This document shows, piece after piece, positions 39,500-45,089 of a DNA stretch of 64,000 bases. The stretch is from Candidatus Peregrinibacteria bacterium GW2011_GWF2_39_17 (lineage in GTDB: Bacteria > Patescibacteriota > Gracilibacteria > UBA1369 > UBA12473): assembly GCA_000993615.1 (NCBI GenBank), contig LBWM01000005.1, forward strand, positions 1 to 64,000, in the 5' to 3' direction. A program made the translations under genes and the position numbers. The number at the start of each line of letters is the position of its first letter. Positions within the stretch are counted from its first letter, which is position 1. The notes beneath the pieces are model-generated. The model was not told the origin of the DNA. It searched no databases and saw only the letters and a list, made by a program, of their open reading frames with translations.

Positions 39500-42412
39500 A
39501 TGCAAACGATTTTTGATGAACTAAACCCCGAACAATATAAAGCCGTTACCCATCTAAATGGACCTCTTTTGATTATTGCTGGAGCTGGCACTGGAAAAAC
39601 CAAAGTACTTACCCATCGTTTTATCCATCTTATAAATCAAGCCGCTCCAAGTAAAAAAAATTCCGTTGCTGAGAAAATCCTAGCTCTAACCTTTACCGAA
39701 AAAGCCGCCCTGGAAATGCAAGAAAGAATCGATGTTTTGCTCCCCTATGGTTATCCGGAACTATGGATTAAAACTTTTCACGGGTTCTCTGATCATATTT
39801 TAAGAGAAAGTGGCCTGGCAATTGGCTTAGACACTGCTTACAAAATTTTAACGCCCATTGAATTAAATATCTTCCTAAGAGAACATCTCTTTGCCTTTGA
39901 ACTTAACCGCTATCGACCACTGGGAAATCCATCACGCTTCATTTCAGCCTTAGTAACTCATTTTGGCCACCTCCGTGACGAATTAATCTCGCCTAATCAA
40001 TACTACCAATATGCTCAAAAATCTCTAAAGAATGCAATCACCGAAGAAGAAAAAGAAATTGCTGACTCATTAATGGAACTAGCCAAAGCTTATCTCCGTT
40101 ACGACCAACTTTTATATCAAAAAGGAGTCATGGATTTTGCCAGTCTAAATTTCCTAACCATAAAACTTTTCCAAGAAAATTCCGCGATTTTGCATTCTTA
40201 CCAAAATCGCTTTACCTACCTTATGGTCGATGAATTTCAAGATACCAATACGGCTCAACGAGTCCTAATTGAAAAAATCGCTGAACCACATCACAACATC
40301 ATGGTCGTTGGCGATGACGATCAATGTATTTACAAGTGGAGAGGAGCTTCTTTAAGCAATATTCTCCACTTTGAGCAGCGCTTTATAAATTGCAAAAGAG
40401 TCGTGCTTACTCAAAATTATCGCTCAACTCAGCCAATCCTAGACCTAAGCTACGCTGTTATTCAAAATAATAATCCTAACCGCCTGGAAATAAAGGATCA
40501 AATTGATAAAAGACTACATTCCACAACTATAAACCAAAATGAACTACTGCCTTTAATAATTCATTTTGACCACTACCTTAAAGAAGCGCAATTTGTCATC
40601 GATACTATTAAAAATGAACTTACCAAGGGTACCTTAAACCCTAAAGACTTTGCGATTCTAGTCCGAGCTAGCGCCCATGCTATCCCCTTTATTGATGCCC
40701 TAAAAACTAATGACATTGCTTACGATTTTTCTGGTAATGAAGGTTTATTCAAAAGAGAAGAAATAAAAGATTTAATGGCCTTACTTAGAAGTATTGTTAA
40801 TCCTAATGATGATATTGCCCTCTTTCGATTACTTTCACTAGATGTCTTTAATGAGGAAATAAGCAATCTCCTCGAATCACGTCATCAAGGAAAAAATAGA
40901 TCAAGCTCTTTATTTTCCATCATTAAACAGCTTAACACTGTTCCTGATCTCTTTACTCCTCCTTCTAGTAAAATCAATCTCCAAAAAGCACTATCTTCCT
41001 TAAAAGAATTCCAAAAAATGGCTCAAAAATCGCCAACTAGTCAAATTTTAGGCAAATTCCTTAATGAATCAGGCTACCTTAATCAACTCACCTCTAATCC
41101 CTCGATAAAAAATACCGAAAAAATCCAAAATATTGCTCTATTTTCCCAAATTATTAAAACCTTTGAAGAAACGCACCTTGATCAACAAATCTCCGAATGT
41201 TTAGATTATCTCAATGCCAGATTCGAAATAGGAGATAATGCCCCCAGCCTGGAAGCCCCACTTGATAACGATACGGTGAAAGTTTTAACCATTCATGCGG
41301 CAAAAGGTCTTGAATTTAATACCGTATTTATCGTTAATCTTGTCCAAAACAGATTCCCGGCTATTAATCGCAAAGAAATATTTGAAATACCAACTGAACT
41401 CCTAACTCCAAATCTAAATGAAGATCAAACCCATTTCACAGAAGAAAGACGCCTATTTTACGTGGCTGCCACTCGCGCCAAAAAACAACTTTTTCTTACC
41501 TACAGTGATCAATACGAGGGGCCTAAGCGCTGGAAACCATCCTGCTTTATTCAGGAAGCTTTAAAATCCGACCAAGTAAAAAAAGAAGAATTCAATCCTT
41601 CAACTCAACCCCCTATCCCCCAAATCACCTTAACCACTTCCCTTAATCATTCCTTAAAAGAACCCAAAAACCCCACTAACTATCCCCTTTTAAACCTTAG
41701 CTATAGCCAAATTGATACTTTTCAAATCTGCCCTCTGAAATATAAATTTGCTTATCATTATCACCTCCCTGGTCCCTCTTTCCACGCCGCTAGTTTTGGA
41801 TCTAGTATCCATAACACCCTCAACGAATTTTACAAACAACTAATCAAAGGAATTCAACCTTCCCTCAAACTTTTACAACACCTTTATCATAAGAATTGGA
41901 TTCCGTTTGGTTATGAAAATCCAGCACACCAAAATGAACAAAAAATCCAAGGATTAAAAATGATTGAGCAATTTTTTCAAACTAACGATCCCGGTTGGAT
42001 TATTCCTAGGTACCTAGAAAAATCATTTTGCTGGAAATCAACCTCAGGCCTAACCATCAAGGGAAGAATCGATCGAATTGATCCACTTACCGACGGCAAT
42101 TTTGAAGTCATAGACTACAAAACAGGAAAATCCCAAGATGAAAAAACCCTCAAAAACAACCTGCAATTATCCATTTACGCTTTAGCCTGCCGAGATGTTC
42201 TTAAAATACCAGTAACCAAATTAACACTCTATTATCTAGCTGAAAACAAAAAAATCAGCACCTCCCGCACTCCCGAGCAACTAATTGATGCTGAACAAAA
42301 TGTAGAAACGATCACAAACACAATCAAAAATTCATCCTTTGAAGCAACACCCTCCCCTTTTATCTGCCAATTCTGCGAATATCGTCTAATCTGCGACAAA
42401 TCCGCAGTTTAA
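39500..42412 (+). CDS. UvrD/PcrA-type helicase fused to a RecB-family nuclease
   Basis: A 970-residue SF1A helicase plus nuclease. Helicase motifs: GAGTGKTKVLTHRF (Walker A, about 28), ALTFTEKAALEMQER, YLMVDEFQDTN, VVGDDDQCIYKWRGAS, TQNYRSTQPIL, VKVLTIHAAKGLEF and FYVAATRAKKQLFL. The C-terminal region from about 730 is a PD-(D/E)XK domain, with SYSQIDTFQICPLKYKF, FEVIDYKTGKS and a final CQFCEYRLIC, giving four cysteines that could hold an iron-sulfur cluster as in AddB and Cas4. It probably processes DNA ends as a single-chain AddA/RecB-like enzyme. Partners are not nearby. Confidence 0.92.
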   Translation: MQTIFDELNPEQYKAVTHLNGPLLIIAGAGTGKTKVLTHRFIHLINQAAPSKKNSVAEKILALTFTEKAALEMQERIDVLLPYGYPELWIKTFHGFSDHILRESGLAIGLDTAYKILTPIELNIFLREHLFAFELNRYRPLGNPSRFISALVTHFGHLRDELISPNQYYQYAQKSLKNAITEEEKEIADSLMELAKAYLRYDQLLYQKGVMDFASLNFLTIKLFQENSAILHSYQNRFTYLMVDEFQDTNTAQRVLIEKIAEPHHNIMVVGDDDQCIYKWRGASLSNILHFEQRFINCKRVVLTQNYRSTQPILDLSYAVIQNNNPNRLEIKDQIDKRLHSTTINQNELLPLIIHFDHYLKEAQFVIDTIKNELTKGTLNPKDFAILVRASAHAIPFIDALKTNDIAYDFSGNEGLFKREEIKDLMALLRSIVNPNDDIALFRLLSLDVFNEEISNLLESRHQGKNRSSSLFSIIKQLNTVPDLFTPPSSKINLQKALSSLKEFQKMAQKSPTSQILGKFLNESGYLNQLTSNPSIKNTEKIQNIALFSQIIKTFEETHLDQQISECLDYLNARFEIGDNAPSLEAPLDNDTVKVLTIHAAKGLEFNTVFIVNLVQNRFPAINRKEIFEIPTELLTPNLNEDQTHFTEERRLFYVAATRAKKQLFLTYSDQYEGPKRWKPSCFIQEALKSDQVKKEEFNPSTQPPIPQITLTTSLNHSLKEPKNPTNYPLLNLSYSQIDTFQICPLKYKFAYHYHLPGPSFHAASFGSSIHNTLNEFYKQLIKGIQPSLKLLQHLYHKNWIPFGYENPAHQNEQKIQGLKMIEQFFQTNDPGWIIPRYLEKSFCWKSTSGLTIKGRIDRIDPLTDGNFEVIDYKTGKSQDEKTLKNNLQLSIYALACRDVLKIPVTKLTLYYLAENKKISTSRTPEQLIDAEQNVETITNTIKNSSFEATPSPFICQFCEYRLICDKSAV

Positions 42413-42433
42413 AATTATTCAGGCAAAGTAGTT

Positions 42434-42463
42434 TAAAAAAACCTCCCAAGAATAAGCCGAGGT
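42434..42463 (-). terminator. Possible intrinsic terminator of the structured RNA
   Basis: On the minus strand ACCTC pairs with GAGGT (42459-42463 with 42441-42445) around a 13-base loop, and a run of T follows (A run at 42435-42441 on the plus strand). The stem is only five pairs, so it is weak. Its place at the end of a row of hairpins supports it. Confidence 0.4.
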
Positions 42464-42823
42464 AATTGCAAAACAATCATTCCAAATAAATGGAATGAAG
42501 GAAAAGAACTTCTAATTTCGCTAAGCGAAACTAAAAATCCAGGTCCCCCATAGCTTTTGCACCTAAAAGGAAAAACCTTTACAAATGCAAACACTACATC
42601 TTTTCCTTAAGCATCTTTCGACTTGCTAGCCCTCATCGAAAAACACATCTAAGGTCGGGAAAAACCACACAGGGCGCAGCCTTTCTCGAGCAAAAATCCC
42701 AAACTTACTCCTAGGGAGGGATTTACCACGGATACACCGGATTATTCCGGAGCAAATCTCTCCCTAAGTAAAACTAATTTTAAAAGGTCAAAAAGAATTT
42801 AAACATCTCAAACAAAATGAGAT
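42434..42823 (-). ncRNA. Candidate structured RNA of about 390 bases
   Basis: The 595-base gap between the helicase-nuclease and infB has no credible reading frame, but it has a minus-strand promoter at one end and a possible terminator at the other. Helices between them: an 18-bp stem with a two-base bulge (42705-42724 with 42754-42771), capped by CCGGA/TCCGG at 42737-42750; TTTCGA/TCGAAA (42616-42641); TTTGCA/TGCAAA (42556-42591) enclosing AAAGG/CCTTT; TTTCGC/GCGAAA (42516-42530); and CATTCCA/TGGAATG (42478-42497). I do not see tmRNA, RNase P, SRP or 6S signatures. Strand choice rests on the promoter and terminator. The function is unknown. Confidence 0.55.
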
Positions 42824-42829
42824 TATCTA

Positions 42830-42858
42830 ATAATAACACTTTAAATTAGTGTAGTCAA
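42830..42858 (-). promoter_or_regulatory. Promoter of the structured RNA
   Basis: Read on the minus strand: TTGACT (42853-42858), a 17-base spacer, then TATTAT (42830-42835). This points leftward, away from infB, into the region rich in hairpins. Expected transcript start is near 42823. Confidence 0.6.
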
Positions 42859-43007
42859 CAAAAAATCCTCAAAATTTCTATTTAGAAAATTCTCACCCCA
42901 AAACCCTAAAGTTAGAGCCCTTTCCTTTTCTTCTATCATTCGCTACACTTAAACCAAATTTTTACAATTCAAATTAGAATCACTATTTTAAAAAACAGCC
43001 AATAATT

Positions 43008-45089
43008 ATGCCTCTTTCCATTATTCAATTTGCCAAAAAAGTCGGCATGACCAAAGAAGAATTGCGTGTTCGCAGTTCCTCCTTAGGTTTTAATATTGAA
43101 GCAGACGCTAAAGTTATCGAAGACGACCTGGCCGACTTGCTATACGAAGAATTTACAAACGAATTAAAAGACACAGCCGACGCTTATGACGAAATCATTG
43201 GAAAAGAACTTGAAAAAGAAATTATTAAAACTCAGCGCAAAAAAACAGCTGGTAAACCTCCATTAAAAGAAAAAAAGGCAAATGAAGCCCCTGCCCCAAC
43301 TACATCACGAGACAAAAAAACCATAATTGAAATCCCAGATACTATTTCAGTCAAAGAATTTGCTGAAAAAACCGGACTTACTCCTGTTCAAGTCATTGGA
43401 CAACTAATGCACAACGGAATTTTAGCTAATATCAATCAGCAAATCGACTACGAAACCGCCCACATTATTGCTCAAGAAATGAGCATTCAGATTAAAAGAA
43501 AACACACTGCAGCTGAAAGCGAGGATATTCTCAAGGGAGATATTGAAAAATTACTTAAGGAGGATGATCCTTCCCTCCTCGTTACTAGACCACCAGTAGT
43601 CAGTATTATGGGACACGTGGATCATGGAAAAACTCAACTACTAGACAGTATCCGAAATACCAATGTTATCGCCACCGAAGCAGGAGGAATTACTCAACAC
43701 ATTGGAGCCTATCAAATCAATAAAAAGGGTAAAATAATCACCTTTCTTGATACGCCTGGACATGAAGCCTTTACAGCCATGAGAGCCAGAGGTGCTAGGG
43801 CCACCGATATTGCTATCCTAGTTGTAGCCGCGGATGAAGGGGTTAAACCACAAACCATAGAAGCAATTAATCACGCTAAAGAAGCCAAAATCCCCATCAT
43901 CGTGGCCCTTAATAAAATGGATAAACCAAATGCGAACCCTCAAAGAGTCATGGGTGAATTAAGTGAATACGGCCTTAATCCTGAAGAATGGGGAGGAGAT
44001 ACAATCATGGTTCCGGTCTCCGCTTTAAAAAATCAAGGCCTCGATAAATTATTAGAAATGATTTTAGTTGTTGCAGAGCTTAGCGACCTTAAAGCTAACC
44101 CCACTCGCCCAGCGGTCGGAACCGTAATCGAAGCCCATTTAGACACTAATTTAGGCCCTGTAGCCACTATTTTAATTAATGCTGGAACCCTAAAAATAAT
44201 GGACTCAGTCATTGTCGGAGGGACCCACGGTAGAATTAAATTAATGAAAGACGCCAACAACAATCGACTCAATCAACTTAAACCTTCGGATGTGGCCCAA
44301 ATAGCCGGCTTAAATAAAACACCACAAGCCGGTGATCTTCTTCAAGTGGTCAATAACGAACGTATTGCTCGTCAAAAAGCAGAAGAAATTTCCGGGCTTA
44401 TTAAGGAAGGAGCTATCCAAAATATGGGCATGGGATTAAGTGAAATTGTAAACCAAATCCAAGAAGGAAAGCTTAAAACCGTTAAAGTCGTACTCAAAGC
44501 TGATACCAAAGGCTCTTTAGAGGCGATTAAAGAAAGTATCGCCAATGAATTAAAATCCGCCGAAGTAGCCGTAAAAATTATCCATTCCGGAGTTGGCAAC
44601 ATTACCGAATCAGATGTTATGATGGCCGCTGCTAGCCAAGGATTAGTTATTGGCTTTCATACCAATGTAACCCCACAAGTAGACCGCCTTTCCGAAAGAT
44701 TAAGAACAGAAGTAGTAGTTTATAAAATAATTTATGAACTCCTGGATGATCTCAAAAAATTATTAATGGGCTTACTAGAACCAGAAATCGCCATTGTGGA
44801 ATTAGGCAAAGCCAAAGTACTCAAAATATTCTACACTCAAAAAACAGAAATGGTCTTGGGCTGTAAAATCCTAGAAGGAAAAGCCAAAGCCAAAGCCAAA
44901 ATACGAGTTGAACACCAAAAAGAAATCATTGGAGAAGGAATCCTAGAAAGCTTAAAAATCGTCAATGAAGAAGTAAAAGAAGTAGAAAAAGGAGGAGAAT
45001 GCGGAATCCGTTTTAAGGGTAAACCTAAAATTGAAGAAGGAGATATCCTTCAATTTTATACCGAAGAGACTCGCCATAAAACTTTATGA
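43008..45089 (+). CDS. infB: Translation initiation factor IF-2
   Basis: A GTPase that places fMet-tRNA on the 30S subunit and joins the subunits. It has 693 residues with a short N-terminal region: two IF2_N-like pieces, [20 protein letters not shown] and [18 protein letters not shown], separated by a charged linker. The G domain starts near 195 with GHVDHGKT, then DTPGHEAF and NKMD. Domain II ([19 protein letters not shown]), domain III and the C-terminal fMet-binding domain follow. The 3' end overlaps rmlB by 4 bases. The upstream gap has AT-rich promoter-like sequence, but no single clear promoter is chosen. Confidence 0.96.

Follow-up and report, generated by a model that had tools for sequence, protein, structure and literature searches.

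A 595-base gap (42413-43007) separates the gene of a UvrD-like helicase-nuclease (39500-42412, plus strand) from infB (43008-45089, plus strand) in the window, a 64,000-nucleotide stretch of DNA from contig C5 of a 1.31-Mb genome (G000). The InfB encoded here shares 70% identity with its counterpart from Ca. Peregrinibacteria, and that name or a related one (Gracilibacteria/Patescibacteria) is borne by most of the roughly 60 nearest loci, which places the host, by inference, in Ca. Peregrinibacteria (Patescibacteria). An earlier note on this DNA had described the gap as free of genes and rich in stable inverted repeats, and both descriptions were borne out. No open reading frame longer than 53 aa was found within 42413-43007, and the minus-strand RNA, taken from its predicted first base as far as the T-run, has a folding energy of -142.3 kcal/mol (z = -8.1), with none of 100 dinucleotide shuffles equally stable; the plus strand of the gap reaches z = -5.6 by the same type of shuffling. 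We conclude from the sequence that the gap encodes a predicted, previously uncatalogued minus-strand RNA gene of about 390 bases, with the following parts:

42830..42858, minus strand: sigma-70-type promoter TTGACT-17-TATTAT with extended -10 (TG), 10/12 consensus positions
42778..42789, minus strand: boxA-like element GACCTTTTAAAA, 9 nt ahead of strand A (p=0.022)
42710..42768, minus strand: leader hairpin P0 (20 bp), from covariation in 16 units
42768-42760, minus strand: P0 strand A, CTTAGGGAG, pairs with A'
42718-42710, minus strand: P0 strand A', CTCCCTAGG, pairs with A
42704..42719, minus strand: 5' strand of the closing helix PT, CCTCCCTAGGAGTAAG, overlaps A' of P0
42457..42703, minus strand: branched RNA body, from RNAalifold with the homolog in genome G001 (z=-8.1 for the whole transcript)
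42506..42540, minus strand: body hairpin GGATTTTTAGTTTCGC-TTA-GCGAAATTAGAAGTTC, from a scan, with compensatory changes in G001
42477..42498, minus strand: body hairpin TCATTCCA-loop-TGGAATGA; G001 has the stem too, and its loop differs
42442..42456, minus strand: 3' strand of PT, A'', CTTATTCTTGGGAGG, resembles strand A
42435..42441, minus strand: T7 run, read from the sequence

The bulged stem with a capped hairpin that had been singled out earlier is real and corresponds to P0 (42768-42710). At the far end of the transcript, the T run reported before is present, but the weak hairpin reported with it is not the terminator stem with the most support. The strand preceding T7 (42456-42442) has its pairing partner at 42719-42704, some 250 bases upstream, with one bulged base in the helix; in this single-unit copy, the likely terminator is PT followed by T7. 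The earlier reader had overlooked the boxA in the leader, the long-range helix that closes the body, and the competition among three strands.

The promoter claimed to face the repeats on the minus strand is there as described. Its score is not unusual in isolation (1.7 such sites are expected from shuffling), and relatives have an equivalent promoter at the equivalent position. All 12 first units of relatives are headed by a promoter scoring 9-11/12, and the upstream score of four inner tandem units never exceeds 7/12.

Every unit has the same order of parts: boxA-like element, spacer, strand A, upper stem, A', body, and A''. P0 is well supported by covariation, as 18 of its 21 pairs have changed on both sides across 16 units. 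Inner loops of P0 were trimmed for two of the alignments (A2 and A5). Over the 16 units, 92.7% of cells are paired; none of 500 shuffles was as high on any measure, and slid controls were far lower than the real alignment. PT covaries as well (8/12 pairs changed on both sides in 11 units, 0/500 shuffles). The two helices are mutually exclusive, with the 5' TTAGGGAG and the 3' TTAGGGAG-T7 competing for one CTCCCTAA strand. Strands A (typically CTTAGGGAG) and A'' (CTTAGGGAG) are near copies of each other, and either can pair with A' (CTCCCTAAG). In members G050 and G059b, where A' has changed, both partner strands have changed to match. Because both helices covary and their common strand keeps its fit to both partners, selection appears to act on P0 and on PT, two helices that cannot coexist. 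In the RNAalifold consensus of the whole RNA with G001, PT included, 23 pairs are compensatory, 19 have changed on one side, 44 are unchanged, and 5 are broken, and 17 of 72 pairs are changed on both sides among four units of another family.

A DNA similarity search of 99 relatives returned mostly chance AT-rich matches. Only its weak match in G001 (74% identity, query 472-532) was recognised as a true homolog, via synteny; G001 is the one genome in the searched set that shares the family of G000. The homolog sits between the helicase gene and rmuC, and its transcript has a promoter, leader, stems, and T-run as in the window RNA. Matches in G002 and G056 from this search were judged to lie inside coding sequence and were rejected. 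Further members occupy the corresponding neighbourhood in G010, G022, and G040; relatives are often found at the helicase/rmuC/infB locus and often form tandem units. We built two covariance models of the leader hairpin, model 1 from five members and model 2 (R2) from sixteen units; E-values from such home-made models are rough. At E <= 0.01, model 2 matched 33 genomes out of 89 from the order, a tally that also counts sister classes and the echoes that the palindromic hairpin leaves on the opposite strand, and that misses weak members. P0 being palindromic, opposite-strand matches at true loci were discarded by the position of boxA, and L133 (G044), L186, and L252 were rejected as members, having no closing strand that could be found or no leader.

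Judged by eye, the class is accepted in at least six families of one order (Ca. Peregrinibacteria), in a list that leaves out L232 (G071). Its members are G000 and G001 in the first family; G010, G022, and G039 in the second; G040 and G051 in the third; G027 in the fourth; G043, G059, G068, G002, G049, G035, and G017 in the fifth; and G050 in the sixth. Tandem units are present in eight genomes (G022, G039, G059, G068, G017, G002, G049, and G035). Model 1, run over 353 genomes of the class with strict filters, matched in the Peregrinibacteria order only, and the clear matches of model 2 in 40 genomes of the class came from this order plus one RNA resembling sister class III.

Inverted repeats are common in AT-rich gaps and the promoter by itself is at chance level, which is what a fortuitously stable intergenic region holding no gene would offer. 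Covariation in P0, PT, and the body amounts, for practical purposes, to a refutation of that reading; synteny and the promoter are conserved in relatives, and R2 never exceeds 15.9 bits over 177 kb of contigs from other lineages, whereas the units analysed here score about 45-67 bits. We therefore give an accidental fold next to no credence.

The RNA has no counterpart among catalogued families. Rfam 15 (4227 families) yielded no family at the gathering cut-off on either strand of the gap. The best sub-threshold match was to GcvB (RF00022; 23.1 bits, E=0.012, partial pairing, cut-off 42 bits), and it was rejected together with weak matches to microRNA-type families, all of which score under the cut-off. 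In the window and the relatives' loci, tRNAs were the only Rfam matches at cut-off, and ARAGORN with Rfam gathering cut-offs found two tRNAs and nothing else in the whole window. Rfam gave no rRNA match in the window; the 16S gene sits at G000:C3:166994. The covariance models for tmRNA (RF00023) and RNase P RNA (RF00010) had no match above cut-off in the window either, and the two RNAs of this genome are encoded at C11:21651-22121 (104.6 bits) and C6:62164-62531 (157.2 bits), respectively. Of the two options left by that note, a new class is upheld, and a divergent housekeeping RNA fails as far as RNase P and tmRNA are concerned. A highly divergent version of any known housekeeping RNA (6S, SRP, RNase P, or tmRNA) would fit the size and the possession of its own promoter, but it is very improbable: RNase P RNA and tmRNA are located elsewhere in the genome, no Rfam model reaches cut-off for the window copy or its relatives, and tandem units with fast-changing bodies are unlike all four. 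The two outcomes that would have spoken against the earlier proposal did not occur, as zero significant Rfam matches were obtained on both strands and the stems are kept in relatives with strong compensatory change.

These results support the gap RNA as a new RNA class that is absent from Rfam, since it has no Rfam match and its plan of a boxA and three competing strands is unfamiliar from described classes; we know of none with this plan. On a looser view, it falls into the known kind of large structured bacterial RNAs of unknown function. Like OLE, GOLLD, and ROOL, it is independent, several hundred bases long, branched, and restricted to a lineage, but unlike them it has no Rfam match, and a boxA leader and competition between helices such as P0 and PT are, to our knowledge, not features of those three. 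Among the papers of the library searched, none joins Peregrinibacteria with noncoding RNA. Few large structured RNA classes exist, and several of the known ones do something central. The RNA described here comes from uncultivated bacteria with small genomes, has an antitermination signal in common with rRNA, and is kept in many genomes despite large sequence divergence, with a three-strand switch of which both states seem to be selected.

The boxA assignment rests on a weight matrix built solely from ten rRNA-leader sites of related genomes. In 16/16 units, the best site of this matrix in the 60 bases ahead of strand A is the expected boxA, 6-29 nt before A. The combined Fisher p is ~5e-15 over the 16 units, a significance that is overstated since the units are related, and the window copy has one of the weaker boxA elements (p=0.022). 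The element lies between the promoter and the structured part, as in Nus-antiterminated transcripts. The 16S rRNA leaders with boxA carry GACCTTTGATAT in this genome and GATCTTTGACAG in G001, and GCTCTTTAATAA is found just upstream of the tmRNA of G000. By sequence, this suggests that long noncoding RNAs in the lineage may generally be led by boxA. Within this genome, boxA precedes tmRNA (L020) as well as 16S (L208-L217).

In inner tandem units, boxA, P0, and PT are retained but there is neither promoter nor T-run; a T-run after A'' is found in single units and most last units. PT is thus not merely a terminator, since the inner units retain it without a T-run. The tandem array of G059 ends (L104:960-1100) in a third boxA-like/P0-like hairpin with T7 directly after it, as if a leader hairpin had turned into a terminator. 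The two states are energetically close: with A'' or A blocked, the energies of the P0 and PT states differ by -5 to +5 kcal/mol across seven members, and the two values for the window RNA are -137.4 and -139.0 kcal/mol. P0 is the predicted fold in 7/7 members before A'' is transcribed, and the minimum-energy fold of the full RNA favours P0 over PT in five of the seven (G000, G010, G050, G040, and G043).

A pair of exclusive helices of nearly equal energy, one of them followed by a T-run, is the classic layout of an attenuator or riboswitch acting in cis. On that reading, P0 would serve as antiterminator and PT-T7 as terminator, with read-through into the next gene decided by a ligand that the body senses; as in such elements, one strand has two alternative partners. 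The helicase gene also lies downstream on the same strand in two of the six members checked (G010 and G022). However, the next gene is convergent in the other four (G000, G001, G040, and G050), where read-through would give antisense RNA only, so that a consistent downstream gene is missing, and the competing helices persist in inner tandem units that have no T-run. On these two grounds a regulator of the neighbouring gene is unlikely, and related class II RNAs carry a separate terminator hairpin past the closing helix. The varying orientation of the neighbouring genes would instead favour action in trans.

In E. coli pre-rRNA, tethering of boxA by NusB has been proposed to bring the leader to the emerging trailer (PMC10250234). 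The gap RNA resembles the pre-rRNA leader and trailer (boxA, boxC, leader-trailer helix; PMC10250234) in having a boxA just before one strand of a long-range helix that closes a large RNA, and in having leader helices; NusB tethering is likewise what has been proposed there. It differs in that it flanks no rRNA, and in that the strand near boxA lies inside the leader hairpin and faces there a strand that resembles the trailer, so that the helices are exclusive. Since this anatomy closely fits the tethering idea, we favour strand exchange during transcription and lean, by a modest preference, towards a trans-acting structured noncoding RNA that is made like pre-rRNA, by boxA tethering and strand exchange. 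After the polymerase starts, boxA would recruit NusB/S10 and remain tethered to the polymerase, which would allow a long untranslated RNA to be made without Rho termination. P0 would form first and hold A' beside the tether while the body folds and loops out. On leaving the polymerase, A'' would displace A by branch migration, so that PT closes the body and the 5' leader is freed. In single and last units, transcription probably also stops at PT followed by T7; where units stand in tandem, the following one opens with its own boxA. If true, boxA-tethered strand exchange would be an undescribed general route to large noncoding RNAs. Whether long noncoding RNAs are in general closed with the help of boxA tethering becomes a testable question.

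The RNA might also act in trans with the exchange between P0 and PT switching the mature RNA on and off under regulation, or serving as a device for RNase III processing, rather than closing the RNA as it is transcribed. The near balance of both states in seven members suits a reversible switch, and P0 is long enough for RNase III cutting. We find this the less persuasive account, with perhaps a one-in-several chance of being right: all units have a boxA, even the inner ones, which points to a part played while the RNA is being made, and no conserved ligand or protein site was recognised across families. The body varies greatly among families, and no conserved active site that points to a function was seen across their bodies.

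The plan of promoter, boxA, A-rich spacer, P0, body, and closing strand appears to recur in at least three sister classes in Peregrinibacteria. It is conceivable, though we would not put it at an even chance, that these bacteria hold a whole system of boxA-led RNAs, with several genes per genome and some of them in tandem, made by rRNA-like tethered strand exchange. Class II (about 590 bases; L111:1480-2090, plus strand; L109 780-1410, minus strand; L119-L127) has a boxA (GATCTTTGAAA), an A-rich spacer, a hairpin (TTTTAGGAAGAG...CTCTTCCTAAAAC), a closing strand (GTTTTAGG), and its separate terminator hairpin. L109 and L111 had no match in Rfam, and class II body DNA is 66-97% identical in other genomes. 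Class III (L235, L246, L230, L254, L255, and L251) combines a boxA with a hairpin that ends in CTCCCTACTTTTCGATGGCAGCC..., A-rich linkers in its interior, GAACGGTAGGGAG ... CCGCTCT, and a 3' domain that is conserved; L251, apparently a member, lies outside the order. Class IV (L240, L248, L247, and L253) comprises a boxA, AAAGAGAGATGAGG...CTCTCTCCTTCTTTAGC, a GGCGGCCGGTGG-like core, A-rich linkers, and a terminator.
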